In this document: positions 6,180-23,324 of the stretch, piece by piece | Position numbering within the stretch: the first letter of the stretch is position 1 | Layout: every line of letters begins with the position of its first letter | Assembly (NCBI RefSeq): GCF_000242635.2 | Contig: NC_017770.1 | Coordinates: 2,616,669 to 2,680,668, forward strand | Direction of reading: 5' to 3' | Length of the DNA stretch: 64,000 bases | From: Solitalea canadensis DSM 3403 | Lineage (GTDB): Bacteria > Bacteroidota > Bacteroidia > Sphingobacteriales > Sphingobacteriaceae | Position numbers and translations under genes: made by a program | Notes under the pieces: generated by a model | The model's input: only the letters and a program-made list of their open reading frames with translations | Told to the model about the DNA's origin: nothing | Database searches by the model: none

Positions 6180-6740
6180 ATGAAAAAATTCTACGTACTA
6201 ATGGCTGCCTTATTAATGGCTGCTGCTGCGACGGCACAAGACGGACCCAAAAATGCGATTAAGGTAAATCCTCTATCTTTGGGAGTTTCAACTATTAACG
6301 TTTCTTACGAAAGAGTTGTTACTGCCCGATCAACTTTTCAGTTAGGCGTTTACTATACTGGTTACAAATTTACCGATACTAAATGGACTGGTTTTGGAAT
6401 TACTCCTGAATATCGAATTCACATGGGTCAGGAAGAATCTGCAATCGAGGGTTTTTACATAGCTCCTTTCTTACGTTACCAAAATCTAAAAATGACAAGC
6501 CCTTCTTTTAGCAACGATGTAAACGCTGAAAACAAATCTACGTTAACTACTTTTGGTGGCGGTGGTGTATTAGGTCGCCAATGGGTTTGGGGTAAATTCG
6601 CTTTGGATATCTTTGGCGGTCCCGCATATAATGCTGGTAACATAAGCTATGAAGACACCAGTGACTCTGAGGTAGAAGGAGTTAACAGGTTCAAAGGATT
6701 CACTCTTCGTTTCGGTGTATCACTTGGTTTAGGTTTCTAA
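6180..6740 (+). CDS. Small outer-membrane beta-barrel protein (DUF3575-like)
   Basis: A 186-residue protein with a signal peptide (MKKFYVLMAALLMAAAATAQ). The start of the mature chain, NAIKVNPLSLGVSTINVSYERV, is typical of DUF3575-type Bacteroidota barrels. Alternating hydrophobic/polar segments and the terminal FTLRFGVSLGLGF strand point to an 8-stranded outer-membrane barrel. The family has no established function. The gene has its own promoter and terminator and so is a single-gene unit, although the next gene also encodes a small barrel. Confidence 0.75.
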   Translation: MKKFYVLMAALLMAAAATAQDGPKNAIKVNPLSLGVSTINVSYERVVTARSTFQLGVYYTGYKFTDTKWTGFGITPEYRIHMGQEESAIEGFYIAPFLRYQNLKMTSPSFSNDVNAENKSTLTTFGGGGVLGRQWVWGKFALDIFGGPAYNAGNISYEDTSDSEVEGVNRFKGFTLRFGVSLGLGF

Positions 6741-6905: not shown

Positions 6906-7517
6906 ATGAAAAACATGCTCAAAGAGTTTCTGTATGCACTTCTCTTCATTGCAGTATCCTCCCCTGTTGAAGCTCAAAAAGATGTTCGTGATTTAAAAAA
7001 TCGTTGGTGGATTTCAGCAGGCATTGGACCAGGTTTTTTAAAAACTACTTTTACCCAAGACACATTAAACCGCTCAGGAAAATTTGGAATTAATGTAAAA
7101 GGGGGCCATACCTTCACTAAATATTTGTTAACCGGAATTGAAATAAACGGATGGAATTTAACCAATAAGTCTTTTTTGAGTTTTGACGGAAGCCGACTAT
7201 CCTCCGCATCAGTTAACGATTTACTGTTGAACACTGCTTTTTTAATGCAAACCTACCCTACCCGCGTTCCCGTGCTTTTTAAAGCAAGTATTGGTTGGAG
7301 CTTTTACATGCCTTCTGCAAATAATTATAAAGGTTCCGGAATTGGAGTTTCTCTCGGTACAGGCTATGAACATACAATGAACAAGCACTTCGGATTAGGT
7401 TTATATCTCAATTATGATTTCGGAAAATTGACAGATCGTGTTATTACAAATAATGAATTTCTGATAAACAGAAAATATAGCGTTATTAATATGGGTTTAA
7501 ATTTCATCATTTATTAA
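6906..7517 (+). CDS. Outer-membrane beta-barrel protein, function unknown
   Basis: A 203-residue protein with a signal peptide (residues 1-23, ending VEAQ). The chain shows regular amphipathic beta strands (WWISAGIGPGFLKTTFTQ, VLFKASIGWSFYMPSA, HFGLGLYLNYDFGKL) and ends in a hydrophobic strand NMGLNFIIY, as outer-membrane barrels do. It belongs to the large outer-membrane beta-barrel group with no specific family recognised. It lies between two terminators or promoters and is probably monocistronic. It is not obviously linked to the ECF system that begins 120 bp downstream. Confidence 0.65.
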   Translation: MKNMLKEFLYALLFIAVSSPVEAQKDVRDLKNRWWISAGIGPGFLKTTFTQDTLNRSGKFGINVKGGHTFTKYLLTGIEINGWNLTNKSFLSFDGSRLSSASVNDLLLNTAFLMQTYPTRVPVLFKASIGWSFYMPSANNYKGSGIGVSLGTGYEHTMNKHFGLGLYLNYDFGKLTDRVITNNEFLINRKYSVINMGLNFIIY

Positions 7518-7639
7518 ACCATAACTCATGTTAATCAAGGCCCTTGAAATGCTAACCTAACGGCTTTGTTGCATGGCAGAAGCTGGTAATAACTTATTTT
7601 TATGTCTTCACAATTTTATCTGTAAAAAAATTAAAACCC

Positions 7640-7671
7640 GCATAGGGGTATACATCTTTTCAAATGTCATA
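7640..7671 (+). promoter_or_regulatory. Candidate ECF-sigma promoter upstream of the sigma gene
   Basis: GCATAGGGGTA, exactly 14 bases, then TGTCATA. The same two blocks with the same spacing occur at 11076-11107 before the second repeat-protein gene. The arrangement is that of a -35/-10 pair and suggests that the sigma factor encoded 48 bp downstream drives its own operon. Confidence 0.7.
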
Positions 7672-7718
7672 TATACAGATTATTTAAACCGAGATATTAA
7701 TCTATTTAAAACAACCTG

Positions 7719-8312
7719 GTGGATCTTTACGATAATCAAACTATAAAACTGCTCGCCGACGGTGATGAACTGAGCAACGAAGTGACTTTTGAGCGCCTAT
7801 TTAAAAGTCATTTTAAGGCTTTACATGCGTATGCTTATACCATAGTGAATGATGAAATAACAGCGGAGGAAATGGTACAAACCGTGTTTCTTAAAATATG
7901 GGAGAAAAAAGAACAATTACAAGTGGAAACATCGATAAAAGCTTATTTGTATCGGGCGGTCCACAATTGTTGCATGAATTATATAAAACATCAAAAGATA
8001 AAATCCTCTTATCAGGAGCATATAACGTATAGCATGAAGAATGAATTTGATGATGCCTCAAAAAAAGTTCAGTTAAGCGAGCTTGAAACCCGTCTTCGGG
8101 CTGCATTAAATGAATTGCCTGAACAATGCAGAACCATCTTTCAGCTAAGTCGTTTTGATGAACTGAAGTACAGGGAGATTGCTGCACAGCTTGGATTATC
8201 GCCCAAAACTGTTGAAAATCAAATGGGGAAAGCGTTGAAAATTCTACGGCTTAAACTAGCTGATTTTTTACCGGTTGCGTTTTGGTTTTTTGTTAATCTT
8301 TTATCACGTTAA
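7719..8312 (+). CDS. ECF RNA polymerase sigma factor (FecI-like, Bacteroidota type)
   Basis: 197 residues from a GTG start; no ATG is better placed. Region 2 covers about residues 25-90 (FERLFKSHFKALHAYAYTIV, EEMVQTVFLKIWEKK). Region 4 is near 130-180 (LNELPEQCRTIF, KYREIAAQLGLSPKTVENQM). A hydrophobic tail (FLPVAFWFFVNLLSR) closes the protein, as in many family members paired with FecR. It should direct RNA polymerase to GGGGTA/TGTCATA-like promoters when released by the FecR partner encoded immediately downstream. One such motif lies before this gene, suggesting positive autoregulation, and the other at 11076. Confidence 0.9.
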   Translation: MDLYDNQTIKLLADGDELSNEVTFERLFKSHFKALHAYAYTIVNDEITAEEMVQTVFLKIWEKKEQLQVETSIKAYLYRAVHNCCMNYIKHQKIKSSYQEHITYSMKNEFDDASKKVQLSELETRLRAALNELPEQCRTIFQLSRFDELKYREIAAQLGLSPKTVENQMGKALKILRLKLADFLPVAFWFFVNLLSR

Positions 8313-8335
8313 TTTTGAATACAGATTTACATAAT

Positions 8336-9298
8336 ATGAATGACGAGTTATTGATCAAATTTCTGCTCAGGGAAACTGATTCTCACGAGAATGAGTTGGT
8401 AGATAAATGGCTCGCTATCGACGCTGCAAATGTTAAGCATTTTGATCAGCTAAAGTTTCTCTGGGATAGTAGTAAACGATTGGCTTCTGAAAGTTCAGTA
8501 GACGAAAATGCTGCTTGGGCTCGCTTTAAGGAAAAGGTATCTGAAAAAAAAAGTATTGAGGTAATTCCGCTCAGAAAAACCAATTGGTTAAAAATTGCAG
8601 CTATTTTATGTGTTATTACAGGTGCTGGGTGGCTAAGCTATCGTTTCCTGATCAGGCCGAATATGTTTCCATTAGACCTAGCATTACAAACCCAAACAGG
8701 CACACGAATAGATACATTGCCTGATGGTTCTGTAATTACGCTAAACAAGTTTTCGGAATTAAAATACCCTGAAAAATTCGTTGGAAACTCAAGGAATATC
8801 AGCCTCGAACAAGGAGAAGCTTTTTTTGATGTAGCAAAAAACAGGAACAAACCATTCATCATCCAAGTGAAGGATATAACGGTAAAAGTAGTGGGAACAT
8901 CTTTTAACATTAAAATATCAGACAAAAACACAGAAGTAATCGTAGAAACAGGCATTGTTCAGGTGAGCAAAAATGGTAAAACAGTAGACCTTTTACCATC
9001 AGAGAAAGTAACAGTAAGCAGTAGTAATTCTTCATTAATAAAAGAAAACAGCACTGATCATTTATATAACTATTACAGAAGCAAGGAGTTTGAAGCAAAC
9101 GAGACTCCACTAAAGCGTGTAATCGAAGTGCTGAATGAAGCTTATGGCGCTCACATTATTTTAGAAAGAGAGGAACTGGGAGAACTAACCCTCACCACTA
9201 CTTTCAAAAATGAATCGCTTGATGACATTCTGGACGTAATCAGCAAAACATTCAATCTGAAAGTGGAAAAGAAAAACAAGACGATTATTATCAAGTAA
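8336..9298 (+). CDS. FecR-family anti-sigma factor (DUF4974 C-terminus)
   Basis: I prefer the ATG at 8336 (320 residues). A TTG at 8315 would add seven residues and sit 2 bp after the sigma stop. A cytoplasmic N-terminal domain that would bind the sigma factor (DELLIKFLLRETD, ENAAWARFKEKV) is followed by one transmembrane helix (about 84-105, WLKIAAILCVITGAGWLSYR). Next come a periplasmic FecR domain (GSVITLNKFSELKYP, GEAFFDVA, VVGTSFNI) and a C-terminal DUF4974 domain (VIEVLNEAYGAHIILE, LDDILDVISKTFNLK). It relays an outer-membrane signal to the sigma factor. The usual partner is a TonB receptor with an N-terminal STN domain; here the STN is carried by the next gene. Confidence 0.9.
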   Translation: MNDELLIKFLLRETDSHENELVDKWLAIDAANVKHFDQLKFLWDSSKRLASESSVDENAAWARFKEKVSEKKSIEVIPLRKTNWLKIAAILCVITGAGWLSYRFLIRPNMFPLDLALQTQTGTRIDTLPDGSVITLNKFSELKYPEKFVGNSRNISLEQGEAFFDVAKNRNKPFIIQVKDITVKVVGTSFNIKISDKNTEVIVETGIVQVSKNGKTVDLLPSEKVTVSSSNSSLIKENSTDHLYNYYRSKEFEANETPLKRVIEVLNEAYGAHIILEREELGELTLTTTFKNESLDDILDVISKTFNLKVEKKNKTIIIK

Positions 9299-9314
9299 GC
9301 TCTTTTAAAATTCA

Positions 9315-11060
9315 ATGAACAACCACAACCTATTAAAAAGAACATTACTTGTGTTTATGGTAATGTTCTTTTACCAGGCAGCATTCGCCCAAAATAACCT
9401 TAATAAAAAAATCACTATTACGATTGAAAACCAGAACCTATCTGATGCCTTAACAATTATCAGCAAAAAAGGTGGTTTCTATTTCTCCTATAGTAGTAAT
9501 ATTATCCCTAACGACAGTCTGATAACATTCAGGGCTACTAATAAATCTGTTAAAGAAATCCTTGACCAGTTATTAAAGGGACATTACGAATACAAAGAGT
9601 CAAAAAACTATATCATCATTAACAAAAAATTACTTAAAGGACTTTCGATGATTGATTATGATATAAAAGCTAGTGGAAATCAGTATACCATCAGCGGTTA
9701 TGTTATTGATGCTCAAAGCGGTGAAAAGATTTACAATGCTTCCGTTTTTGAGCGGCAAATGCTCTCATCAACTTTAACCAATAAGGACGGTTATTTCTCG
9801 CTCCGCTTAAAGAATGTCCAAAAGAAAACCATTGACCTGACGGCGAGCAAAAGTTTATACCGGGATACAACGGTTATGATTTTGCATGAAATAACCGTCA
9901 GACCCGGAGGTTACAAGGAAAGCGATAACAGGATGTATGACGAGGATTCGAGTCAGGTTGAACGAACCTTTATGGGACGCATCCTCCTCTCCTCCAAACA
10001 ATCTATACAAAGTTTAAACTTGGCCGGTTTCTTCGCAGACCGGCCTTTTCAGGCTTCCGTAGTTCCCGGATTGAGCTCGCATGGAATGATGAGTTCACAA
10101 GTGGTAAATAAATTCTCCTTTAATATCTTGGGTGGATATACCGCCGGTGTAGATGGTTTTGAGATGGCAGGTATCTTCAATATCAACAAGAAAAATTCGC
10201 AATATGTTCAGCTAGCCGGTGTGTTTAATGTGGTGGGCGGCAGTGTTAAAGGGGTACAACTTTCGGGCATTACTAATACTATTTTAGATAATGTAAATGG
10301 AGTACAGCTTACCGGTATTTATAATTTTGTAAATCATAGCATGAATGGTGTACAACTCTCAGGTATTTTTAATAACGGCCAATCCGTGGCAGGCGTTCAA
10401 TTAACCGGTATCGCCAATCATGTAAGCACCAATGCAAGAGGATTCCAACTGGCCGGAATTACTAATATTGTTGAAAAAGATGCAGATGGTGTGCAGTTGG
10501 CTGGCATTTTAAATTACTCGCGAAAATTCTCAGGTTTTCAATTAGCCGTTATCAATATTGCAGATTCTTCTTCAGGATGTAGCCTGGGGCTACTAAACTT
10601 TATTAAAAACGGATATTTTAAAGTCGGCGTAACAGTCAATGAATTAACTAATACCAATGTTTACCTTAAAACAGGCAATTCAAAGCTTTATACGATGTTG
10701 ATGGCCGGAACTAACCTTTCTGACCAGGAGAAAATATTCACCTTCGGATTGGGTATTGGTCACGATTTTATTTTTAGCCATCGGTTCTCTGTGTCAACAG
10801 AAGCCTCATCTCAGTCTGTGTTTATCGGTGAATGGGCTAATACAGGAATACTAGCCAAAGGTAATTTAAACATCAACTTTAAACTGGCAAAGGGAATCGC
10901 TATAACAGCTGGACCAACATTCAGTATGTACACTAATGGAAATGCTGTTCCTGTGGAAGGTTACAGAACTCAGATCCCTCCTGCCAATTACCGTACTTAC
11001 ACAATTAACAAGAATACAGTGGGTTGGATCGGGTGGAACGCAGGATTAATTGTATTTTAA
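9315..11060 (+). CDS. STN + carboxypeptidase-regulatory-like protein with GxQLxG repeats
   Basis: A 581-residue exported protein (signal 1-26). Residues about 34-105 are a secretin/TonB short N-terminal (STN) domain (ITIENQNLSDALTIISKKGG), the domain that contacts FecR in TonB receptors. About 125-195 is a carboxypeptidase-regulatory-like beta sandwich (ISGYVIDAQSGEKIYNASV). From about 275 to 415 come nine 15-16-residue units of the form G-V-Q-L-x-G-I-x-N, ending in the cap INIADSS, then a beta-rich tail. No TonB plug or 22-strand barrel follows, unlike the classical system. It is 16 bp from the FecR gene and is the third gene of the operon. It is probably the sensor; the ligand is unknown. 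Confidence 0.8.
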   Translation: MNNHNLLKRTLLVFMVMFFYQAAFAQNNLNKKITITIENQNLSDALTIISKKGGFYFSYSSNIIPNDSLITFRATNKSVKEILDQLLKGHYEYKESKNYIIINKKLLKGLSMIDYDIKASGNQYTISGYVIDAQSGEKIYNASVFERQMLSSTLTNKDGYFSLRLKNVQKKTIDLTASKSLYRDTTVMILHEITVRPGGYKESDNRMYDEDSSQVERTFMGRILLSSKQSIQSLNLAGFFADRPFQASVVPGLSSHGMMSSQVVNKFSFNILGGYTAGVDGFEMAGIFNINKKNSQYVQLAGVFNVVGGSVKGVQLSGITNTILDNVNGVQLTGIYNFVNHSMNGVQLSGIFNNGQSVAGVQLTGIANHVSTNARGFQLAGITNIVEKDADGVQLAGILNYSRKFSGFQLAVINIADSSSGCSLGLLNFIKNGYFKVGVTVNELTNTNVYLKTGNSKLYTMLMAGTNLSDQEKIFTFGLGIGHDFIFSHRFSVSTEASSQSVFIGEWANTGILAKGNLNINFKLAKGIAITAGPTFSMYTNGNAVPVEGYRTQIPPANYRTYTINKNTVGWIGWNAGLIVF

Positions 11061-11075
11061 TTTCTTAGTGCAGGT

Positions 11076-11107
11076 GCATAGGGGTAAAAAGCACTTTCGT
11101 TGTCATA
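11076..11107 (+). promoter_or_regulatory. Second copy of the ECF promoter motif
   Basis: GCATAGGGGTA, exactly 14 bases, then TGTCATA, identical in both blocks and in spacing to 7640-7671. It lies in the 63 bp gap before the second repeat-protein gene, so that gene can be transcribed separately under the same sigma factor. Confidence 0.7.
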
Positions 11108-11123
11108 CTTATAAAGAAAACAA

Positions 11124-12254
11124 ATGAAAGTAAATATTACTATGCACCCAATTTTTAAACTTAAATCACTCGTCGTACTTGCTATCGCTCTGTTTTTAAC
11201 TACTACTGTATCTGTTGCTCAGGATAAAGAGAATAAAGAAGAAAAGAAAGAAAGTATTTTTCACATCGGATTTATTTACCCGGTCAGCAATCATGGATCA
11301 AATGCAGGAGAATACGTAAATAAAGTATCTTTTCATGTTTTAGGTGGATTGTCTGCCGGTGAAACCGGATTTGCATTATCAGGACTTGCAACTGTAGTTA
11401 ACGGAAATGCTGAAGGCGCACAGATTGCAGGGCTTTCAAACCTTGTGAAGGGACATGTTCAGGGATTCCAATTAGCCGGATTAGCCAATTTATACGGAAG
11501 TTCAAGAGGCGGACAAGTTGCCGGGTTAGCCAACTTCGCCCGTGAGAACGTAGATGGTTTTCAACTGGCCGGATTGGCAAACTTGTATGGAAATTCAAAA
11601 GGTGCTCAGATAGCCGGATTAAGTAATATTGCCCGTCAGAACGTAGATGGCTTTCAATTCGCCGGATTATTTAACAAAGCCCGCAACGTTAACGGATCTC
11701 AGTTTGCAGGTTTAGTGAATGTGGCTAAAAAAGTTCGTGGTGTGCAATTCGCTGGCCTAATTAATATTGCGGATAGCAGTGATTGCCCAATCGCTTTGAT
11801 CAATATTATTAAAAAAGGAGAAAAAACAATCGGCCTTAGCACAGACGAAACGCTTACAACACTGGCTTCGTTCCGTTCAGGTGGCAGAGTGATGTACGGA
11901 ATTTTAGGGTTAGGTTATAACTTCAAAAATGATGACCAGGTTTTCGCGGCCGAAGCCGGATTAGGTGCTCATTTCTTCCAGGGCAATAAATTCAGGTTAA
12001 ACACCGAGCTAACAAGTTTAACCCTTACCGATTTTGATTCCGGAAATTACTTTAAATCATCGTTACGCCTTTTACCTTCATTTAAACTTTCTAAGAGAAT
12101 TGAGATTTATGCAGGACCAACTCTAAACTTTGTAAACACCAATACTGAAGAAGGGAAAAAGCTGGTTGATCACTATTTCTGGAGCGATGATTCAAGCAAT
12201 GATTTCAAAGGTTTGTACATTGGATACACCGGAGGTATTCAGTTCATTTTGTAA
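11124..12254 (+). CDS. Exported GxQxAGL-repeat protein, partner of the ECF/STN locus
   Basis: 376 residues; an internal ATG at 11142 also gives a good signal peptide (ending VSVAQ) and leaves more room after the promoter. An opening segment (NKVSFHVLGGLSAGETGF) resembles that of the preceding protein. Nine tandem 15-16-residue units of the form G-x-Q-x-A-G-L-x-N occupy about residues 80-215 and end in the same cap, INIADSS. A beta-barrel-like tail (GILGLGYNFKNDDQ to GYTGGIQFIL) follows. The first protein of this locus has nine equivalent units but an added STN domain. This looks like a surface or outer-membrane solenoid; the function is unknown. The repeats resemble LA_2272-type surface repeats in general form only. 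Confidence 0.75.
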   Translation: MKVNITMHPIFKLKSLVVLAIALFLTTTVSVAQDKENKEEKKESIFHIGFIYPVSNHGSNAGEYVNKVSFHVLGGLSAGETGFALSGLATVVNGNAEGAQIAGLSNLVKGHVQGFQLAGLANLYGSSRGGQVAGLANFARENVDGFQLAGLANLYGNSKGAQIAGLSNIARQNVDGFQFAGLFNKARNVNGSQFAGLVNVAKKVRGVQFAGLINIADSSDCPIALINIIKKGEKTIGLSTDETLTTLASFRSGGRVMYGILGLGYNFKNDDQVFAAEAGLGAHFFQGNKFRLNTELTSLTLTDFDSGNYFKSSLRLLPSFKLSKRIEIYAGPTLNFVNTNTEEGKKLVDHYFWSDDSSNDFKGLYIGYTGGIQFIL

Positions 12255-12275
12255 AAATTTCGCAGCACAAACCTT

Positions 12276-12304
12276 AAAAATCCCGGTTATTTACCGGGAT
12301 TTTT
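12276..12304 (+). terminator. Rho-independent terminator closing the ECF/STN locus
   Basis: A 12 bp perfect stem (AAAAATCCCGGT/ACCGGGATTTTT) with a 5-base loop, 21 bp after the repeat-protein stop. Confidence 0.9.
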
Positions 12305-12358
12305 GTTTTATGACCTGCATCAGTTTTTGTAGTTATGCCATTATCTACTTTTACATCC

Positions 12359-13665: not shown

Positions 13666-14367
13666 ATGAAAAAATTAAAATTTACGCTCGTTGTACTGTT
13701 GGTTTTGACCGCGGCATTTTTTGCCACACACTGTCAACACGAAGATTCGGAAGCAATTCCAGTCGTTGGACCTGATCCGGTTGAACGTGGAGACCAAATT
13801 ATAACCTGTACGGATTGTAATACTGTTCCGGCAGCGTCTGGTGTTTGGTATCATGATAAAGCCCACTCCAACGTTGAATGGGAGACGCAGTATAAAGAAT
13901 TTGGTTCATTGCTTACGGGCAGGTTCGATTCCTTCTTTATGACTAGTCTAAACTTTGATGAAGCAAACCCATCTAACATTTCATTTGAAGGTTACGTGTG
14001 GTTAAACTCAGTAAATACGAGTGAGCCTGCCAGGGATGATGGTTGTTTGCTGGTATCATTTGGAACAACTAACGATTTAACTGATGAGGCCCAAAATAGA
14101 GCGACACTTAAAACAAAGGCAGGCACAGGAAGATACAGTACCACAGATGCCGGTTTTTTGATAGATGCTGATATAACATTTCTGGGTATCACAAAACCAA
14201 TTACGGTTAAAATGTTTTTTGCCCCAAAATATGATATTGGTACCTCCTTCGCTGCTGGTTTTAATTCAGAATTTGAAATAAAAAAGGCCGATTTTCTACC
14301 GAACGATACCAATATTGGTGATGTTATCCGTATTAAAATCAATAGCCTGATGAAGGCCAAAAAGTAA
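13666..14367 (+). CDS. YceI-like domain lipoprotein, first gene of the redox operon
   Basis: A 233-residue lipoprotein with Cys23 (ATHC) after a hydrophobic signal. Residues about 60-233 follow the YceI lipocalin-like pattern: HSNVEWETQYKEFGSLLTGRF, SLNFDEANPSNISFEGYVW, SVNTSEPARD and a final FEIKKADF segment. YceI proteins bind isoprenoid chains such as polyprenol or ubiquinone analogues in an elongated barrel. A membrane-anchored quinone- or isoprenoid-binding protein fits the NrfD-type quinone subunit encoded downstream. A CTDC motif (about residues 48-51) precedes the domain. It is separated by 11 bp from the next gene, so cotranscription is expected. Confidence 0.75.
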   Translation: MKKLKFTLVVLLVLTAAFFATHCQHEDSEAIPVVGPDPVERGDQIITCTDCNTVPAASGVWYHDKAHSNVEWETQYKEFGSLLTGRFDSFFMTSLNFDEANPSNISFEGYVWLNSVNTSEPARDDGCLLVSFGTTNDLTDEAQNRATLKTKAGTGRYSTTDAGFLIDADITFLGITKPITVKMFFAPKYDIGTSFAAGFNSEFEIKKADFLPNDTNIGDVIRIKINSLMKAKK

Positions 14368-14378
14368 ATATTTGTTTT

Positions 14379-14762
14379 ATGAAAAAGAAACTTATTTATC
14401 TGGCGATTGCACTTATATGTGCTTCGGGCGGTCTTCATGCGTGCTATTATGATACTGTTGCTTCAATTGACGGACTTCCTACCAATGTGAGTCTGAAAAA
14501 TGACGTTCAACCTATTTTTGACCGAGATTGTAACATGTCGGGTTGTCATGACAGTAAACCAACACATGCGCCTGGTTTAACCCCCGAAAAAGCCTATGAA
14601 GATCTAACTTCTGGTGGCTATATAAATACAACAGATCCCGCAAATAGCGTATTATACCTGGCTATCAATGGTGGTGGAATGCCAGCAGGACGTCCTCCAT
14701 TAAGTGATAGGGATAAGAAATTAATTCTAGGATGGATAACAGACGGAGCTAAGAATAACTAA
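14379..14762 (+). CDS. Small c-type cytochrome lipoprotein with a CX4CH heme site
   Basis: 127 residues with a lipobox at Cys22 (LHAC). The heme motif is C51-N-M-S-G-C-H57, that is CX4CH rather than the standard CXXCH. A candidate distal ligand is Met101 in GGGMPAG. The fold otherwise looks like a class I/PSCyt1-type mono-heme domain (VQPIFDRDC, LSDRDKKLILGWITDGA). CX4CH heme attachment is known in some cytochromes but needs a tolerant maturation system; alternatively the heme is absent. It sits between the YceI and DUF5777 genes (11 and 19 bp gaps) and may pass electrons at the outer membrane. Confidence 0.75.
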   Translation: MKKKLIYLAIALICASGGLHACYYDTVASIDGLPTNVSLKNDVQPIFDRDCNMSGCHDSKPTHAPGLTPEKAYEDLTSGGYINTTDPANSVLYLAINGGGMPAGRPPLSDRDKKLILGWITDGAKNN

Positions 14763-14781
14763 AGCTTTTAAATAGATCAAT

Positions 14782-15738
14782 ATGAAAAATTTAAAAACTA
14801 TAAATAGCTTCCGTATGATATTCATAACGGGGCTTTTGCTTGCATCGCTATCTACTTTTGCTCAGGTGGATTCTGTTAAAGTACAAGAAGATTCTGTTAA
14901 TGTAGAAGAGTCAGATAAGGCACAAGATAGTGGAAACAAACCGGTGCGTTCTGCATTTGAAAGCACCTGGATTATAGACAACCAAACGACAGTTGTACCT
15001 CAAAAAGGTTCATTAGAATTTATGATTAATCACCGGTTTGGAACAATATACAACGGTGTTAGTGATCTCTACGGTATGTACGGTGCAGGTGCAAACATCA
15101 GGCTTGGTTTAAATTATTCCTTGTTTGATAACGTTGGCTTTGGAATATTCAAAGGTACTGTTGCTACCGGAATTGGTGTTACGAAAGCAGGCATGGTTTC
15201 AGACATCAACCTGAAATATGGCTTTCTTCAACAAACCAGAAACGGAAGAATACCAATAAGTGTGACCTACTATATGGATTTTGGCATATCTACCCAAAAT
15301 AAGGTAGAAGATCTTCCAAATGGTAACGCATCTGACCGGCTTTCATTCTTTCATCAGATCATTATTTCCCGGAAGTTTAATGATCAGTTTTCCCTCATGG
15401 TGGCGCCGAGTCTTTCACACTTCAATGTGGTGGATCCTACCATGCAAAACGATTTTTTTGCAGTCGCTGTAGCTGGTAGGTATAAAATCTCTGAACAATC
15501 ATCGATCCTCCTAAACTACGATCAACCGATTACCAAATTTACAGACAGCAATCCCCAGTTTAATTTGAGTACCGGTATAGAGATAGCCACAAGCGCTCAC
15601 CAGTTCCAGATTTTTATATCGAATTTTCCGCTGATCGTACCTCAATACAACAATGTTTACAATCAGCCAAATTCTCAGCATAAGTGGTATCAGGATTTGT
15701 ACATAGGGTTCAATATTACCCGGCTTTGGAGCTTTTAA
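14782..15738 (+). CDS. DUF5777-type outer-membrane beta-barrel protein
   Basis: 318 residues with a signal peptide (ending STFAQ). An acidic linker (about 30-55) precedes a barrel domain that begins STWIIDNQTTVVPQKGSLEF, followed by MINHRFGTI and repeated amphipathic strands, and ends LYIGFNITRLWSF with a terminal Phe. This fits the DUF5777 family, which I know to recur with cytochromes and YceI proteins in Bacteroidota. Its role is not established; a porin or a conduit-type scaffold is possible. It is the third gene of the operon. Confidence 0.75.
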   Translation: MKNLKTINSFRMIFITGLLLASLSTFAQVDSVKVQEDSVNVEESDKAQDSGNKPVRSAFESTWIIDNQTTVVPQKGSLEFMINHRFGTIYNGVSDLYGMYGAGANIRLGLNYSLFDNVGFGIFKGTVATGIGVTKAGMVSDINLKYGFLQQTRNGRIPISVTYYMDFGISTQNKVEDLPNGNASDRLSFFHQIIISRKFNDQFSLMVAPSLSHFNVVDPTMQNDFFAVAVAGRYKISEQSSILLNYDQPITKFTDSNPQFNLSTGIEIATSAHQFQIFISNFPLIVPQYNNVYNQPNSQHKWYQDLYIGFNITRLWSF

Positions 15739-15750
15739 AACTAAAAGCAT

Positions 15751-15972
15751 ATGAATAATCTAAGCAGAAAAAAATTTTTGTTCTCAGGCTTAAGCCTTGC
15801 AGCAGTAATCACTTTTTTTAAATGGAAGAGTATACCGGAAAAAAAGAAAACTGCAACCGCGAAATTTTTAACGCAAGATGGAAAGCTAGTGGAAATCGAT
15901 ATTGAAAAGTTGCCACTTTCTAAGAAAGTTATTGCCTCTAAGGAGGATGTGCAGAATTGGGTTAAAAAATAA
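15751..15972 (+). CDS. Small Tat-like exported protein resembling the ferredoxin leader
   Basis: 73 residues. The N-terminus (SRKKFLFSGLSLAAVITFF) looks like a weakened Tat signal or a membrane anchor. The tail (AKFLTQDGKLVEIDIEKL) closely matches the segment after the Tat signal of the next protein (VKLLSTSGEIIEVDKAYL): same spacing, shared G, E and D. This suggests a duplication of the ferredoxin leader region. There are no cysteines and so no cofactor. It lies 12 bp after the barrel gene and 11 bp before the ferredoxin gene. A role in maturation or docking of the ferredoxin is conceivable but unproven. Confidence 0.65.
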   Translation: MNNLSRKKFLFSGLSLAAVITFFKWKSIPEKKKTATAKFLTQDGKLVEIDIEKLPLSKKVIASKEDVQNWVKK

Positions 15973-15983
15973 AAACGATATCT

Positions 15984-16910
15984 ATGATCGATTTATCCAA
16001 AATAATTCCAATAAAACAAATCCAACGCAGGGATTTTCTTAAAGGAGCCCTACTGGCTGGCCTAGCTGGTTGTACGTCAAAAGATCCCTTTACTTCACAG
16101 GCTAAACAAGAAAATGTGAAGCCCTCGGGTCAAATGGTGAAGCTCCTTTCTACTTCTGGAGAGATCATTGAAGTGGATAAAGCTTATCTTAAACCTACCG
16201 AAGAGATCCCTTCCATTAACAATATGGCTGAGCGTATGGGCATTGAGGGTAAGAAATTTGTGATGGTAATTGACCTATCCCGCTGCCGTAATCTTAAAAA
16301 ATGCCAGGAAGCTTGTAACCATGCTCATTTTGTGAGTGATCATCAAAACTGGGTCAAAATATATCCAATGCAGGACGCTGAGAATACATCCCCATTTTGG
16401 CAACCTACAATATGTCTGCATTGTGATGACCCTCCATGCGTAAAAGTTTGCCCGGTAGACGCCACCTTTAAACGTCAGGATGGTATAGTAGGTATTGATG
16501 CAGAAAGGTGTATTGGCTGCCGTTTTTGTATGGCTGCTTGTCCCTACTCTACCCGCGTATTCAACTGGGATAAACCAATAATTCCTAAGGCGGTTGAAGG
16601 TCTTCCATATTCTATCGAAACAAGCTGCCCTCCTAAGGTTGGAACAGTTTCGAAATGTGATTTCTGTCCGGATATGGCACGAAAAGGAGAACTGCCACAT
16701 TGTGTTTCCGCATGTCCAAACGGGGTATTTTTCTTTGGAGATTTAAATGAAGATACGGTAACCAATGGTTCAGAGACGGTTCGCTTTAGTGAGTTAATTC
16801 GCGATCGTGCAGGCTATAGATTAATGGAAGAGCTTGGTACCAAACCAAGCGTTTATTATTTACCGCCGGTAGATCGATTGTTCCCTTTTAAAAATGAATC
16901 AGGCACATGA
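15984..16910 (+). CDS. Tat-exported four-cluster ferredoxin subunit (NrfC/DsrO/ActB-like)
   Basis: 308 residues with a Tat signal (QRRDFLKGALL, residues 14-24) ending in a lipobox-like Cys30. The cluster motifs are C101/C107/C111; C144, C147, C152, C156; C176, C179, C182, C186; and C225, C228, C240, C244. In the first motif the second expected Cys is Leu104, which predicts a [3Fe-4S] cluster or loss of one cluster. Such subunits carry electrons between an NrfD-type quinone subunit and a periplasmic partner. The stop codon overlaps the NrfD start (4 bp), so the pair is translationally coupled. No molybdopterin catalytic subunit is nearby. Confidence 0.85.
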   Translation: MIDLSKIIPIKQIQRRDFLKGALLAGLAGCTSKDPFTSQAKQENVKPSGQMVKLLSTSGEIIEVDKAYLKPTEEIPSINNMAERMGIEGKKFVMVIDLSRCRNLKKCQEACNHAHFVSDHQNWVKIYPMQDAENTSPFWQPTICLHCDDPPCVKVCPVDATFKRQDGIVGIDAERCIGCRFCMAACPYSTRVFNWDKPIIPKAVEGLPYSIETSCPPKVGTVSKCDFCPDMARKGELPHCVSACPNGVFFFGDLNEDTVTNGSETVRFSELIRDRAGYRLMEELGTKPSVYYLPPVDRLFPFKNESGT

Positions 16911-18208
16911 ACTCCTCTAAAATAACCTCGGATCTATTACCCAAAAAGTTTGGAAAAGCTGGGTTTGTTTGGACAGCCCTGCTAGTAGTGCTTTGTCTGA
17001 TCGGATTATATGGTTATTATCGGCAAGTCACTTTAGGTTTAGGTGTAACCGGTATGCGTGATTATGCCTCTTGGGGAATTTATATTTCCAATTTTGTTTT
17101 TTTTGTAGCAATAAGTTTAGTGGGTTCACTCATCACCGCTATTTTTCGTCTTGCTGGCGCAGAATGGCGCACCCCTATAACACGCATTTCAGAAATTATT
17201 GCCGTATCGTCAATCTTATTTGCTTCTATCATCATTATCGTTGATATGGGGCGACCTGAACGATTCTATCATCTCTTTTTTTATGGCAGATTACAATCTC
17301 CTATTATGTGGGATGTTATTGTTATCACTACTTATCTTACTATCAGTGTATTATTCCTTTATTTTCCATTGTTGCCTGATATTCCTATTCTAATTAAGAA
17401 TAGTAAACCAGGAAGTTTCGTTCAAAAAATTTACAAATTTCTGGGGTCGTTTTGGATAGGCACTGCTGCACAATTTAAAATAAGCGAGAATGCAATTAAG
17501 ATAATTTCAGTGATGATCATTCCCATTGCTTTGGCCATTCACACAGTTACTTCATGGCTATTTGCGACCACCTATCGCCCGGGATGGGACAGTACCAACT
17601 TTGGCGCCTATTTTGTTTCCGGGGCATTTTTGGTTGGGGCCGGTGGAGTGGTTGTAGCGATGTATGTATTCAGAAAAGCTTATCAGCTTGAGGCATACAT
17701 CACTGATAAACATTTTAACAATATGAGTAAGATCGTAGTAATGCTTGCTCTGTTGTATTTGTATTTCAATATTAATGAATACCTGGTTCCTGCTTTTAAA
17801 ATGAAAAAGGCAGAAGAACATCATCTTCATAGTTTGTTTATGGGTGACTTCGCCCTCTTATTTTGGTCGGCCATTATATTAGGTATGATTGTTCCGATAA
17901 TTGTATTATTATTTCCTAAAGGAAGAAAACCAGTCCCAGCCTTTTTAATGGGTGTGTTAGTAGTGGTAGGTGCATGGTTTAAGCGATTTCTTATTGTTAC
18001 CCCAACTATGCTAAGTCCGTTTCTTCCTATGTATGATGTGCCGGAATCTTACAAACATTACATGCCAACCTGGGAAGAATGGGCCATCACCATTGGTTCA
18101 CTAGCAGGCACTTTACTCATCATTACCATTTTTACAAGATTGTTTCCCATTATACCTATTCATGAAACGATAGAAGAAATGGAACACAGTAAACAGGAAA
18201 CAGTATGA
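16907..18208 (+). CDS. nrfD: NrfD/PsrC-type quinone-interacting membrane subunit
   Basis: 433 residues with about ten hydrophobic segments (for example FVWTALLVVLCLIGLYGYY, FVFFVAISLVGSLITAIF, ISVMIIPIALAIHTVTSWLF). The early segment RDYASWGIYISNFVFFVAIS is typical of the NrfD family, in the HybB/DsrP/ActC branch. The role is quinol oxidation or quinone reduction in the inner membrane, exchanging electrons with the periplasmic ferredoxin encoded just upstream. It overlaps the ferredoxin gene by 4 bp and the next gene by 4 bp (ATGA). The symbol is given in the family sense only; nitrite reduction is not implied because no NrfA is present. Confidence 0.85.
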   Translation: MNSSKITSDLLPKKFGKAGFVWTALLVVLCLIGLYGYYRQVTLGLGVTGMRDYASWGIYISNFVFFVAISLVGSLITAIFRLAGAEWRTPITRISEIIAVSSILFASIIIIVDMGRPERFYHLFFYGRLQSPIMWDVIVITTYLTISVLFLYFPLLPDIPILIKNSKPGSFVQKIYKFLGSFWIGTAAQFKISENAIKIISVMIIPIALAIHTVTSWLFATTYRPGWDSTNFGAYFVSGAFLVGAGGVVVAMYVFRKAYQLEAYITDKHFNNMSKIVVMLALLYLYFNINEYLVPAFKMKKAEEHHLHSLFMGDFALLFWSAIILGMIVPIIVLLFPKGRKPVPAFLMGVLVVVGAWFKRFLIVTPTMLSPFLPMYDVPESYKHYMPTWEEWAITIGSLAGTLLIITIFTRLFPIIPIHETIEEMEHSKQETV

Positions 18209-19098
18209 AGCAAGTAATTTCAATAGGATTCATTTTACTGGCACTCTGCCTGATAACTTTTTCGGTTCAAAGTCAAAGTAAAGCGGCGAAAGGCACTATT
18301 CAAATATATCTTGCCTATTCACAATTCAATAATGATCTGCCAGTCATTAAAGTTTCAACAAAAACTAAAAAGGATCAAAAGTTTATGCCTGTAGATGGAG
18401 TTGAAGTTAACCTTTTCTTCAATTCAGAAACCGCATCTAATTTTATGGGCCGGGTAAAAACAGACATTCATGGAAATGGGTCATTATCCTTACCTGTTCG
18501 GTTTAAAACTCAATGGGATTCAATGGCCAATTTTAAATTTATTGGTACAGTTACTCAGAATAGCCGCTTTGATGATCAATCCTCTGAACTGGAAATCACA
18601 AAAGCAAAGATTGAACTTAAGCTTGATGTGGTAGATAGTACGCGTAATATTCATGCAAAAGTATTGGCTTTTCATCCGGATAGCGGATGGGTTGCACAAC
18701 CCGAAATCGAAATTAAACTGATAGTAAGAAGAATGTTAAGTGACTTAAAGGCTACTGAAGAAGAATCATATACTACTGATGCCAATGGTGAAGTATCCGG
18801 TGAATATAATCTCAGTAACATTCCCGGAGATATGCAAGGAAATATTCTTGTTGGAGCGAAAATGGATGAAAATGAGCTGTATGGAACTTTGGTTGCGGCA
18901 AAACCTGTAAAATGGGGAATACGAGTTGAACCTGACAATAGCTTTGCAAAAAGAAGTTTGTGGGCAACTCGGGATAAAACACCTCTGTGGTTACTTATTT
19001 TCCCTAACATCATCATTATCAGTGTTTGGGGAATTATATTTTATCTGATCTATCAGATCATAAAACTTAAAAAACTTGGAAAACGCGATACTATATAA
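18205..19098 (+). CDS. Membrane-anchored periplasmic protein with Ig-like beta domains
   Basis: 297 residues with a signal peptide (1-24, ending VQSQ), a periplasmic beta-rich region and one C-terminal transmembrane helix (about 262-284, WLLIFPNIIIISVWGIIFYL) with a lysine-rich cytoplasmic tail. The region holds two segments resembling bacterial Ig-like/carboxypeptidase-regulatory folds (VDGVEVNLFFNSETASNFMG, YTTDANGEVSGEYNLS). No cofactor motif is visible. I do not recognise the family. Because the start overlaps the NrfD stop, it is probably a structural or assembly subunit of the same membrane complex. Confidence 0.65.
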   Translation: MKQVISIGFILLALCLITFSVQSQSKAAKGTIQIYLAYSQFNNDLPVIKVSTKTKKDQKFMPVDGVEVNLFFNSETASNFMGRVKTDIHGNGSLSLPVRFKTQWDSMANFKFIGTVTQNSRFDDQSSELEITKAKIELKLDVVDSTRNIHAKVLAFHPDSGWVAQPEIEIKLIVRRMLSDLKATEEESYTTDANGEVSGEYNLSNIPGDMQGNILVGAKMDENELYGTLVAAKPVKWGIRVEPDNSFAKRSLWATRDKTPLWLLIFPNIIIISVWGIIFYLIYQIIKLKKLGKRDTI

Positions 19099-19129
19099 TT
19101 GAATTTCTAACTCTATAAAAATCCATATT

Positions 19130-19525
19130 ATGAAAACAAATTTGATTGGAGTAGTAATGGTTGGCGGTCTCCTTTTATCATTCACTTATTATCAGACTAA
19201 ACCTTGGGTTGTACCTGAAAAAAATGCAAAAATGGCCAATCCTGTGAAAGCCGATGCCGCTTCGCTAAAAACTGGTAAAGAAATGTGGACTAAACATTGT
19301 GCTTCATGTCACGGCAAAACCGGGTTAGGTGACGGAACCAAAGCGGCCTCATTAAAAACAGCCATGGAGGATTTGACCACAGCAGCAGTGCAAAAACAAT
19401 CCGACGGAGCATTATATTATAAGGTTTCAGAAGGACGTGAGGAAATGCCTTCTTTCAAAAAGAAAATTCCTGATAGCGAAGACCTGTGGTCAATCGTAAA
19501 TTATATGAGGACGTTCAAAAAATAA
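19130..19525 (+). CDS. Mono-heme cytochrome c, last gene of the redox operon
   Basis: 131 residues with an N-terminal hydrophobic anchor or signal, the heme motif C57-A-S-C-H61, and a distal Met106 in REEMPSF. This is a normal class I cytochrome c domain (WTKHCASCHGKTGLGDGT, LWSIVNYMRTF). It is likely the soluble or tethered electron carrier that links the quinone module to a terminal oxidase or other acceptor. It lies 31 bp after the Ig-like gene and closes the eight-gene operon; about 165 bp of non-coding DNA and a hairpin follow. Confidence 0.85.
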   Translation: MKTNLIGVVMVGGLLLSFTYYQTKPWVVPEKNAKMANPVKADAASLKTGKEMWTKHCASCHGKTGLGDGTKAASLKTAMEDLTTAAVQKQSDGALYYKVSEGREEMPSFKKKIPDSEDLWSIVNYMRTFKK

Positions 19526-22463: not shown

Positions 22464-23324
22464 ATGAATTTTTGTCGCTTAATATTAATCGCCCTCTCCT
22501 TTATTGCCGTTGCCTGTTCAACTAAGAATGTGGAAAAGGAAACCGATTACCGGAGAAAACTTAATAATAACTGGATTGAGATTAAAAGAAGTAACCCTTC
22601 GGGAGGATTATATAGCACTTATGGAGAGCGCTATAAAGCAGATTGGCTGATGTTTGTGGATGACAAAGGATTTGCAACCATCAAAACTCCCCAAAACTAT
22701 TACCGCAACATTTTCGTTCGTCCCGACTCGATCATCAAATGGGAAAAATATAAATACCGTATCGTTAAGCTTAAAACTGACACTATGGTGTTAGAATTTA
22801 TCCCCAACAAAAATGACAATGTAAATAAACCGCATCATTTGATGTTCGTTACTGAAAAGGTTTATAAAAAGATAAATAAAACCACGTTAGAGCAACTACA
22901 AACATTAAGTAAGAAAGACACCTTATTCCTGGAGAAGTTATTAGACTCCTGCAAGAAATCGCCTGATTATTATTTTTCAGCAGAAAAAATGCCTTTTGCT
23001 AAGCCGCTTCAACCTTATATAAAAATCGATACGCTTACTTCCAATGATGGACGTTTGGAGTTTAAAATTATTGAACAAGGGGCCGAAGTTAAATACGACC
23101 ATCTTTATTCGGGCAAATTCATCGTGAGAGAAAATGGCAAGATCAGCAATTTTGATGTAGGATTAATGACCTGGGGTGGAGAAGAAATTCACCCGGATAC
23201 TTATAAATACATCAAGCAATTTATAGAAAATAAAATCCGGTTTGAGGCTGGAACTACTCTAGGGGTAAAACACAATTCATTTGTTTACTTCACCTTTATG
23301 AGGACAAACGAGATAAAAGGTTAA
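22464..23324 (+). CDS. Hypothetical lipoprotein
   Basis: 286 residues with a lipoprotein signal and Cys18 (IAVAC). The mature part is mixed alpha/beta and rich in Lys and aromatic residues (ERYKADWLMFVDDKGFATIK, VKYDHLYSGKFIVRENGKIS). The last third (NFDVGLMTWGGEEIHPDTYKYI, then FIENKIRFEAGTTLGVKHNSFVYF) loosely resembles a TonB C-terminal-like fold found in Bacteroidota lipoproteins. I do not assign a function. It is transcribed divergently from mutS across a 125 bp gap and followed by a repeat-rich gap. Confidence 0.65.
   Translation: MNFCRLILIALSFIAVACSTKNVEKETDYRRKLNNNWIEIKRSNPSGGLYSTYGERYKADWLMFVDDKGFATIKTPQNYYRNIFVRPDSIIKWEKYKYRIVKLKTDTMVLEFIPNKNDNVNKPHHLMFVTEKVYKKINKTTLEQLQTLSKKDTLFLEKLLDSCKKSPDYYFSAEKMPFAKPLQPYIKIDTLTSNDGRLEFKIIEQGAEVKYDHLYSGKFIVRENGKISNFDVGLMTWGGEEIHPDTYKYIKQFIENKIRFEAGTTLGVKHNSFVYFTFMRTNEIKG

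Follow-up and report, generated by a model that had tools for sequence, protein, structure and literature searches.

A two-box DNA motif that occurs twice in a 64,000-nucleotide stretch of the Solitalea canadensis DSM 3403 genome (NC_017770.1, positions 2,616,669 to 2,680,668; hereafter the window) is very probably the -35/-10 promoter of the FecI-type extracytoplasmic function (ECF) sigma factor encoded at position 7719, and would drive both the operon of that factor and a second gene, REP2. The motif, GCATAGGGGTA-N14-TGTCATA, stands before the sigma gene (copy P1), which is followed by genes for a FecR-type anti-sigma factor and a repeat-bearing protein with an STN domain (STN-REP), and again before REP2 (copy P2), which encodes a second repeat protein. 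A first-pass annotation of the window had proposed that the motif is the promoter of this sigma factor, and that the sigma-FecR-STN unit and the second repeat gene form one regulon. Both proposals are strongly supported, as far as sequence comparison goes, by the footprint of the motif in 80 homologous loci, by its genome co-occurrence with STN-REP and by its absence at 17 other FecR loci.

Two exact copies of the motif in the genome

As had been read by eye, the window holds two identical pairs of blocks with equal spacing, at 7640-7671 (GCATAGGGGTA 7640-7650, spacer 7651-7664, TGTCATA 7665-7671) and at 11076-11107 (GCATAGGGGTA 11076-11086, spacer 11087-11100, TGTCATA 11101-11107). The 14-base spacers differ in sequence, and the two sites are therefore not one copied block. 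No third copy was present in the window when up to three mismatches were allowed; 100 dinucleotide shuffles of the window, searched with the same tolerance, gave a mean of 0.07 matches, and none gave two. The genome scan for GGGGTA-N14-TGTCATA that the annotation had suggested extends its remark that the motif was seen nowhere else, as the only exact matches in 5,202,069 bases are P1 and P2. With up to two mismatches, the genome gave 72 matches and its reversed control 101, so that loose matches are uninformative.

The core GGGGTA-N14-TGTC occurred seven times in the genome versus eight in the reversed control, the seven being P1, P2, two intergenic sites with the longer box TAGGGGTA, and three sites within open reading frames (ORFs) that lack TA before GGGG. 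The longer form TAGGGGTA-N14-TGTC separated more cleanly, with four exact sites versus none in the reversed control, all four intergenic and facing the next gene, including the two beyond P1 and P2 (L031/L158 and L037/L171). The annotation had held that occurrence at many unrelated genes would speak against its proposal; two of these four sites lie at distant genes. When ATAGGGGTA followed by GTC was scanned at 14 spacings (N9-N22), we found five matches versus four in the reversed control; all five had spacing N15, and the fifth lay within an ORF on the opposite strand. A near match, TAGGGGTA-N14-TGTT, at 23260-23285 within ORF 22464-23324, has no plus-strand gene directly after it and is probably due to chance.

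The motif follows operon order in homologous loci

We collected homologous loci by a profile scan of contigs with alignment A1, which yielded 226 loci, and analysed the best 80 (L172-L251); an earlier contig scan with a single protein query had given no confirmed locus. The 80 loci come from Pedobacter (32), Daejeonella, Albibacterium, Hufsiella, Mucilaginibacter, Chitinophaga, Taibaiella, Terrimonas, Dyadobacter and others. With at most one mismatch, the core GGGGTA-N14-TGTC stood before the sigma gene, REP2 or both in 74/80 loci (exact in 49/80), and 22 of 23 genus-level groups, three of which are pools without a genus name, had it before at least one of these genes. The count of 74 used a wider search range and the sigma and REP2 genes alone; a first count that included receptor and DUF2807 genes gave 76/80, and in two of its four misses (L177, L179) an exact site falls within an ORF that was called too long. 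Among control ORFs, 4/590 had the motif with at most one mismatch and none had it exactly.

The position of the motif differed with gene arrangement. Where REP2 lies upstream of sigma, as if REP2 headed one unit (43 of the 80 loci), the motif preceded REP2 in 40/43 and sigma in 0/43; where REP2 lies downstream (17 loci), it preceded sigma in 17/17 and REP2 in 16/17. Loci without a recognised REP2 had it before sigma in 14 of 18 cases, and the remaining two of the 80 had no sigma gene within the stretch. It was never found directly before FecR (0/79) or STN-REP (0/80). Upstream stretches shorter than 100 bases and control ORFs overlapping annotated genes by more than 50 bases were excluded from this arrangement count. 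Because its position tracks operon order across arrangements, the motif seems to sit where transcription units begin. The separation of the S. canadensis locus into two transcripts, as first annotated, is one possible reading: no terminator-like site was found between the STN gene and P2, so that REP2 may also be reached by read-through, and 43 of the 80 homologous loci have REP2 upstream of sigma, in most cases with the motif before it.

Of 60 relatives, fifteen, including S. canadensis, match STN-REP, and 13 of the other 14 have the match beside sigma and FecR genes; 11 of these 13 sigma-bearing loci carry the motif, with at most one mismatch, before sigma and/or REP2.

The conserved columns have the form of an ECF promoter

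Across the 80 loci, the spacer was 14 bases in 62/62 exact TAGGGGTA/TGTC pairs when 5 to 25 bases were allowed. A matrix of 106 distinct sites read TAGGGGTAA-N11-GTTGTC[T/A][T/C]A, with a spacer that is not conserved. Sites were picked by the boxes of this matrix; four flanking columns that played no part in the selection were conserved as well (T-2 in 104/106, A-1 in 95/106, G18 in 86/106 and T19 in 82/106). Columns 32-34 after the start of GGGGTA are A-rich, in the expected transcription start zone, and many sites lie about 45 bases before a start codon; the A-rich stretch may reflect the transcription start or instead the context of the translation start. As in an ECF promoter, both boxes are conserved, keep a constant distance from each other and lie a short way before transcription units, the sigma operon among them. 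While conservation, spacing and linkage were computed, recognition of the motif by the sigma factor is something we infer from its linkage, specificity and promoter-like form.

Two groups of loci depart from the consensus. Five Dyadobacter loci (L242, L244, L245, L250, L251) have a changed -35 box, TTTAGGGTAA, and all five of their sigma factors carry proline at the residue matching S161, among several clade-specific residues (the others have serine in 72 cases and alanine in one). In Chitinophagaceae-type loci (L178, L187, L188, L203, L207, L208, L212, L214, L223), the -10 box before sigma is TTGTT rather than TTGTC, and region 2 of the sigma factors of this group has Q55 in 10/10 (also in 8 others) and F58 and R63 in 9/10. 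Each co-change of sigma residues and box variant involves one clade, and is only suggestive.

Specificity and co-occurrence with the STN-REP sensor

We read 18 FecR genes in the S. canadensis genome, 17 of them outside this locus. The exact core was absent from all 17 other FecR loci (both strands of the whole stretches; a sigma ORF was recognised in 14/17). With one mismatch allowed, in TGTC or as A for T in GGGGTA, these loci had two sites, neither before a sigma gene. In a quick tree with long paralogue branches, which held 49 of the 79 sigma factors of STN-REP loci (five from loci without the motif at sigma or REP2), these factors formed one side of a branch that set them apart from 14 paralogues of S. 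canadensis (SH-aLRT, an approximate likelihood ratio test, 96).

Among the 60 relatives, 12 genomes had the exact motif, and 11 of these were among the 15 with an STN-REP/REP match (Fisher p 4e-8; reversed motif p 0.37), counting as shared G037, whose site sits inside an ORF. Three genomes of the same genus carry neither the motif nor such a match. Among 295 genomes of the class, scored with four candidate proteins per genome, the motif was present in 68, an STN-REP/REP match (E <= 1e-25) in 58 and both in 44 (Fisher p 6e-23); the reversed motif occurred by chance in 84/295 genomes and had no association with STN-REP/REP (p 0.99). Of the 119 class-wide sites, 47 are no more than 6 kb from a match, another 43 are elsewhere in a genome that has one, and 29 are in genomes without any. 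From the shuffles, the reversed controls, the control ORFs and this co-occurrence, we rejected a chance origin of the motif.

Several observations weigh against a dedicated sigma-motif-sensor system. In 6/80 loci, the motif was absent at both sigma and REP2; in four of these (L191, L231, L234, L237) it stood before a receptor or REP-like gene instead, and in L219 and L243 it was nowhere near the locus. Two of the 13 sigma-bearing loci of relatives (L084, L087) also lack it, and G037 has a REP protein alone. An exact motif is missing anywhere in 14 of the 58 class genomes with an STN-REP/REP match, and 24 of the 68 motif genomes have no such match. The Fisher values are uncorrected for relatedness and come from overlapping genome sets, and thus overstate certainty, and the control ORFs include spurious six-frame ORFs, which makes that control lenient. 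Of the DUF2807 genes in the 80 loci, only 1/43 has the motif directly before it, most of them sitting behind REP2 in one run, and the stretches examined at six DUF2807 matches in S. canadensis contained no site with zero or one mismatch (one held two sites with two mismatches). The STN assignment of STN-REP is itself narrow (PF07660, 30.5 bits versus a cut-off of 28.4).

Candidate targets of the sigma factor

The recurrent targets predicted from motif position are the sigma/FecR/sensor operon, REP2, receptors with CarboxypepD_reg and Plug domains, and some DUF2807 proteins. In S. canadensis, the third genome site precedes a DUF6134 gene (PF19630, 98.5 bits) that starts 64 bases after the site, and the fourth precedes a CarboxypepD_reg/Plug receptor gene that starts about 190 bases after it; the sigma factor probably also drives these two distant genes. 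Within the 80 loci, 16 of 21 long receptor genes had the motif before them.

For 29 of the 119 class-wide sites, in 28 loci, we read the downstream genes. Six sites preceded sigma genes (one was scanned and was confirmed by Pfam), one a FecR gene (confirmed), three DUF2807 genes and five CarboxypepD_reg proteins (all eight confirmed by Pfam). Plug scored above cut-off in two of the five CarboxypepD_reg proteins and just under it in two, and was unseen in one incomplete protein. Two further sites preceded small barrel-like proteins, as judged by eye, four had other or no clear genes after them, and eight lay within ORFs. At locus L157 of genome G013, which has no STN-REP match, an exact TAGGGGTA-N14-TGTC site precedes a gene that is FecR-like by eye.

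A probable sensor with a predicted stalk and small barrel

The sigma factor scored 175.1 bits against TIGR02985 (the FecI class of Bacteroidetes; cut-off 126.4) and also matched Sigma70_r2 and r4_2. The adjoining FecR gene encodes a FecR domain (PF04773, 71.1 bits) and a periplasmic FecR_C domain (PF16344, 51.5 bits). STN-REP has an N-terminal end that resembles a signal peptide by eye, an STN domain at 57-102 and a CarboxypepD_reg-like domain at 126-178, followed by GVQLAGIxN repeats of about 16 residues, modelled as beta-helix-like over about 246-432, and by a modelled eight-stranded barrel at about 433-581. A domain search of STN-REP gave no match to a Plug or TonB receptor domain. REP2 is 35% identical to sensor residues 248-542, matches no Pfam family, and lacks STN and CarboxypepD_reg matches.

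Protein alignment A4 covers 37/40 picked loci (80 in all) and alignment A5 39/40 (61 in all). AlphaFold models, made from alignments of the window's and relatives' proteins, had a mean predicted local distance difference test (pLDDT) of 92.3 for REP2 and 82.3 for STN-REP, the latter with a predicted template modelling score (pTM) of 0.56 and two low-confidence stretches. Statements on fold rest on VIA-align Z scores of these predicted models. REP2 residues 232-376 aligned with OprF (4rlc) at Z 14.7 (121 residues, root-mean-square deviation (rmsd) 2.4), which speaks for a shared fold and no more. Sensor residues 430-581 aligned with the eight-stranded barrels 6x9z (Z 14.0, 112 residues, rmsd 2.3) and OprF 4rlc (Z 13.7, 121 residues, rmsd 2.8). 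The repeat regions gave looser superpositions: REP2 40-231 matched the beta-helix of GlmU (3spt) at Z 14.0 but with rmsd 9.6 over 175 residues, and the repeat part of the sensor matched 1hm0 at Z 13.5 but with rmsd 10.4 over 172. Foldseek returned no match for either model at E <= 0.001. When the sequences were compared with solved structures, positions 118-192 of the sensor profile matched a SusC-homologue chain (9hfj, E 1.4e-6), and REP2 gave nothing beyond 9rzq at E 0.077.

By these models, STN-REP does not belong to the TonB-dependent receptors; it is predicted to consist of a stalk and a small OmpA-like barrel. Both ends of OmpA-type barrels face the periplasm, so the stalk and the STN domain would be periplasmic, where STN can meet FecR_C. 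The LA_2272 surface-repeat proteins (NF047436) likewise carry short repeats on a membrane protein; we rejected membership in that family (14.0 and 11.9 bits versus a curated cut-off of 25). Repeat number varies from 4 to 11 in the sensor and from 4 to 12 in REP2 across the 80 loci. Without correction for relatedness, and not used here as support, sensor and REP2 repeat counts have a Spearman correlation of 0.47 (61 loci) and their lengths one of 0.21 (p 0.11).

A proposed regulatory circuit and its signal

Domain anatomy was computed; the signal and feedback of the following circuit are inferred. FecR would hold the sigma factor at the inner membrane and, as cell-surface signalling has it, its C-terminal domain would be contacted in the periplasm by the STN domain of STN-REP. 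STN-REP would be anchored by its OmpA-type barrel through the beta-helix-like stalk and not by a TonB-dependent receptor; what it senses is for that reason probably how the outer membrane or surface is constituted or occupied, rather than import of a ligand. Once active, the sigma factor would transcribe its own operon (sigma, FecR, STN-REP) from P1 and REP2 from P2. Because the sigma operon carries the promoter, positive autoregulation is likely. REP2, which has the stalk and barrel of the sensor and no STN domain, would be a product of the circuit and, as a competitor of the sensor, may dampen the loop. That REP2 is a damping competitor and that outer-membrane state is the signal are guesses, which we hold at slightly less than even confidence.

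A different signal would leave the promoter and regulon unchanged: the CarboxypepD_reg/Plug receptor that is co-regulated might take up a ligand, and STN-REP would do no more than relay the event. The receptor is a recurrent target, with the motif before most long receptor genes of the 80 loci and before more elsewhere. The scanned receptors, however, have no STN match, the STN domain sits on the barrel protein, and most of the 80 loci have no recognised receptor in their flanks (one reference receptor, BLAST 1e-6). We consider an uptake signal unlikely, while taking it seriously.

Other readings of the motif

The motif might be common to several ECF sigma factors, or be read by another one, and mark a wider, non-specific regulon. 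ECF -10 boxes are short, and the FecR-like gene of G013, like the class motif genomes without an STN-REP/REP match, fits such sharing. For motif SM6 of Flavobacterium, a study suggested that several ECF factors may read it (PMC9723704). Against this stand the other FecR loci of S. canadensis, where the exact core is absent, the count of four TAGGGGTA-N14-TGTC sites in 5.2 Mb, and the co-occurrence with STN-REP; we regard a shared motif as improbable.

Conserved two-box sites can also be operators, and transcript starts at this locus are predictions from sequence; an unlinked DNA-binding regulator might bind here instead of a sigma factor. The invariant N14 spacing, the ECF-type TTGTC box and the placement just before start codons argue otherwise. 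The -7 box of Bacteroidota sigma-A is given as TAnnTTTG (PMC9723704), and we found no such box in 7518-7719 or 11000-11124, which also counts against an operator. This reading is a slim prospect.

We rejected on the arrangement data of the 80 loci, as having next to no chance of being right, the idea that P2 is a relic of a duplication that yielded REP2 and STN-REP: REP2 does resemble the C-terminal part of STN-REP, but the motif never precedes the sensor gene, the P1 and P2 spacers differ, the motif tracks unit heads across families, and the boxes are conserved with free spacers over many genera.

Relation to described systems

The locus shares with FecI-FecR-FecA signalling (E. coli Fec; Pseudomonas Fox and Pup) a FecI-class sigma factor, a FecR protein with FecR_C, an outer-membrane partner with an STN domain and an ECF-type -10 box. 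It differs in that the partner is a stalk with an eight-stranded barrel, and in that the predicted targets include the sensor's own paralogue. An STN-type signalling domain is reported to contact the anti-sigma C-terminal domain in TonB-dependent transducers (PMC11637429). Since the transducer here is not a TonB-dependent receptor, we describe the system as a variant of FecIR cell-surface signalling and not as a FecIRA system. The first-pass statement that sigma factors of the FecI type transcribe the operons that encode them does not describe the paradigm: according to a review, E. coli fecIR is not autoregulated (PMC9249621), and self-activation would set the present system, whose sigma operon carries the promoter, apart from it.

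The nearest described idea is the Dma/Das system of Bacteroides thetaiotaomicron (PMC13088901), which also pairs a Bacteroidota ECF sigma factor with a control chain ending in an outer-membrane barrel. Dma is described there as a single polypeptide of anti-sigma domain, helix, disordered tether and barrel, whereas here the corresponding ORFs are separate (8315-9298 and 9315-11060), and Das is described as ECF21, whereas the sigma factor here is of the TIGR02985 FecI type.

The -10 box resembles other Bacteroidota ECF motifs with a TGT-like core (F. psychrophilum SM6 with CGT; a non-canonical TGTT near -10 in B. thetaiotaomicron). The TAGGGGTA -35 box, the strict N14 spacer and the linkage to sigma, FecR and STN-REP set it apart from them, by comparison with their descriptions in words, which name no such box. 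As of 2020, none of the alternative ECF sigma factors of B. thetaiotaomicron had a known motif (PMC7366714).

Among the matches listed in a search of the open-access literature, with subscription papers mostly outside its range, we found no paper on the motif or on STN/stalk/barrel sensors. The parts (FecI, FecR, STN, ECF promoter) are known; among the same matches, the combination of a non-TonB STN transducer, an autoregulated FecI, a strict promoter code and envelope targets is absent. FecI/FecR pairs are numerous in Bacteroidota, and here one sigma clade gains a promoter code exact enough for listing candidate targets. Those targets point to a FecIR variant that would sense through an outer-membrane barrel on a stalk and not through an importer, and make it directly testable whether Bacteroidota sense outer-membrane state through STN and FecR. 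It is possible, though less likely than not, that such loci form a widespread envelope-sensing class of Bacteroidota, with an autoregulated FecI-type sigma factor, a strict TAGGGGTA-N14-TGTC code, control by way of FecR from a TonB-independent STN-stalk sensor, and as chief output a stalk-and-barrel paralogue of that sensor, closing a homeostatic loop on outer-membrane state.

Features of the locus and its neighbours

Table 1. Features of the sigma-FecR-STN-REP and REP2 locus, in window coordinates.
Feature	Coordinates	Strand	Basis
Putative promoter P1: -35 box TAGGGGTA, 14-base spacer, -10 box TGTC(ATA)	7640..7671	+	Consensus kept in homologous loci
Expected P1 transcription start region	7676..7680	+	A-rich columns 32-34 after GGGGTA start
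FecI-type ECF sigma factor, 197 aa, GTG start	7719..8312	+	TIGR02985, Sigma70_r2, r4_2, tree
FecR-type anti-sigma factor, start given as TTG, with an ATG at 8336	8315..9298	+	FecR, FecR_C
STN-REP sensor, 581 aa	9315..11060	+	STN, CarboxypepD_reg-like, repeats, barrel model
Putative promoter P2, boxes and spacing as P1, before REP2	11076..11107	+	Position kept in relatives
Expected P2 transcription start region	11112..11116	+	A-rich columns after motif
REP2, repeat protein, 376 aa	11124..12254	+	Resembles sensor; model pLDDT 92.3
Terminator-like hairpin and T run after REP2	12275..12305	+	Sequence

Just upstream of P1, two small outer-membrane barrel genes (DUF3575 and OMP_b-brl; 6180-6740 and 6906-7517, plus strand) lack the motif. 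Farther downstream, 13666-19525 encodes, as judged by eye, a YceI-like protein, an iron-sulphur protein, an NrfD-like membrane protein and a c-type cytochrome, possibly one redox module.

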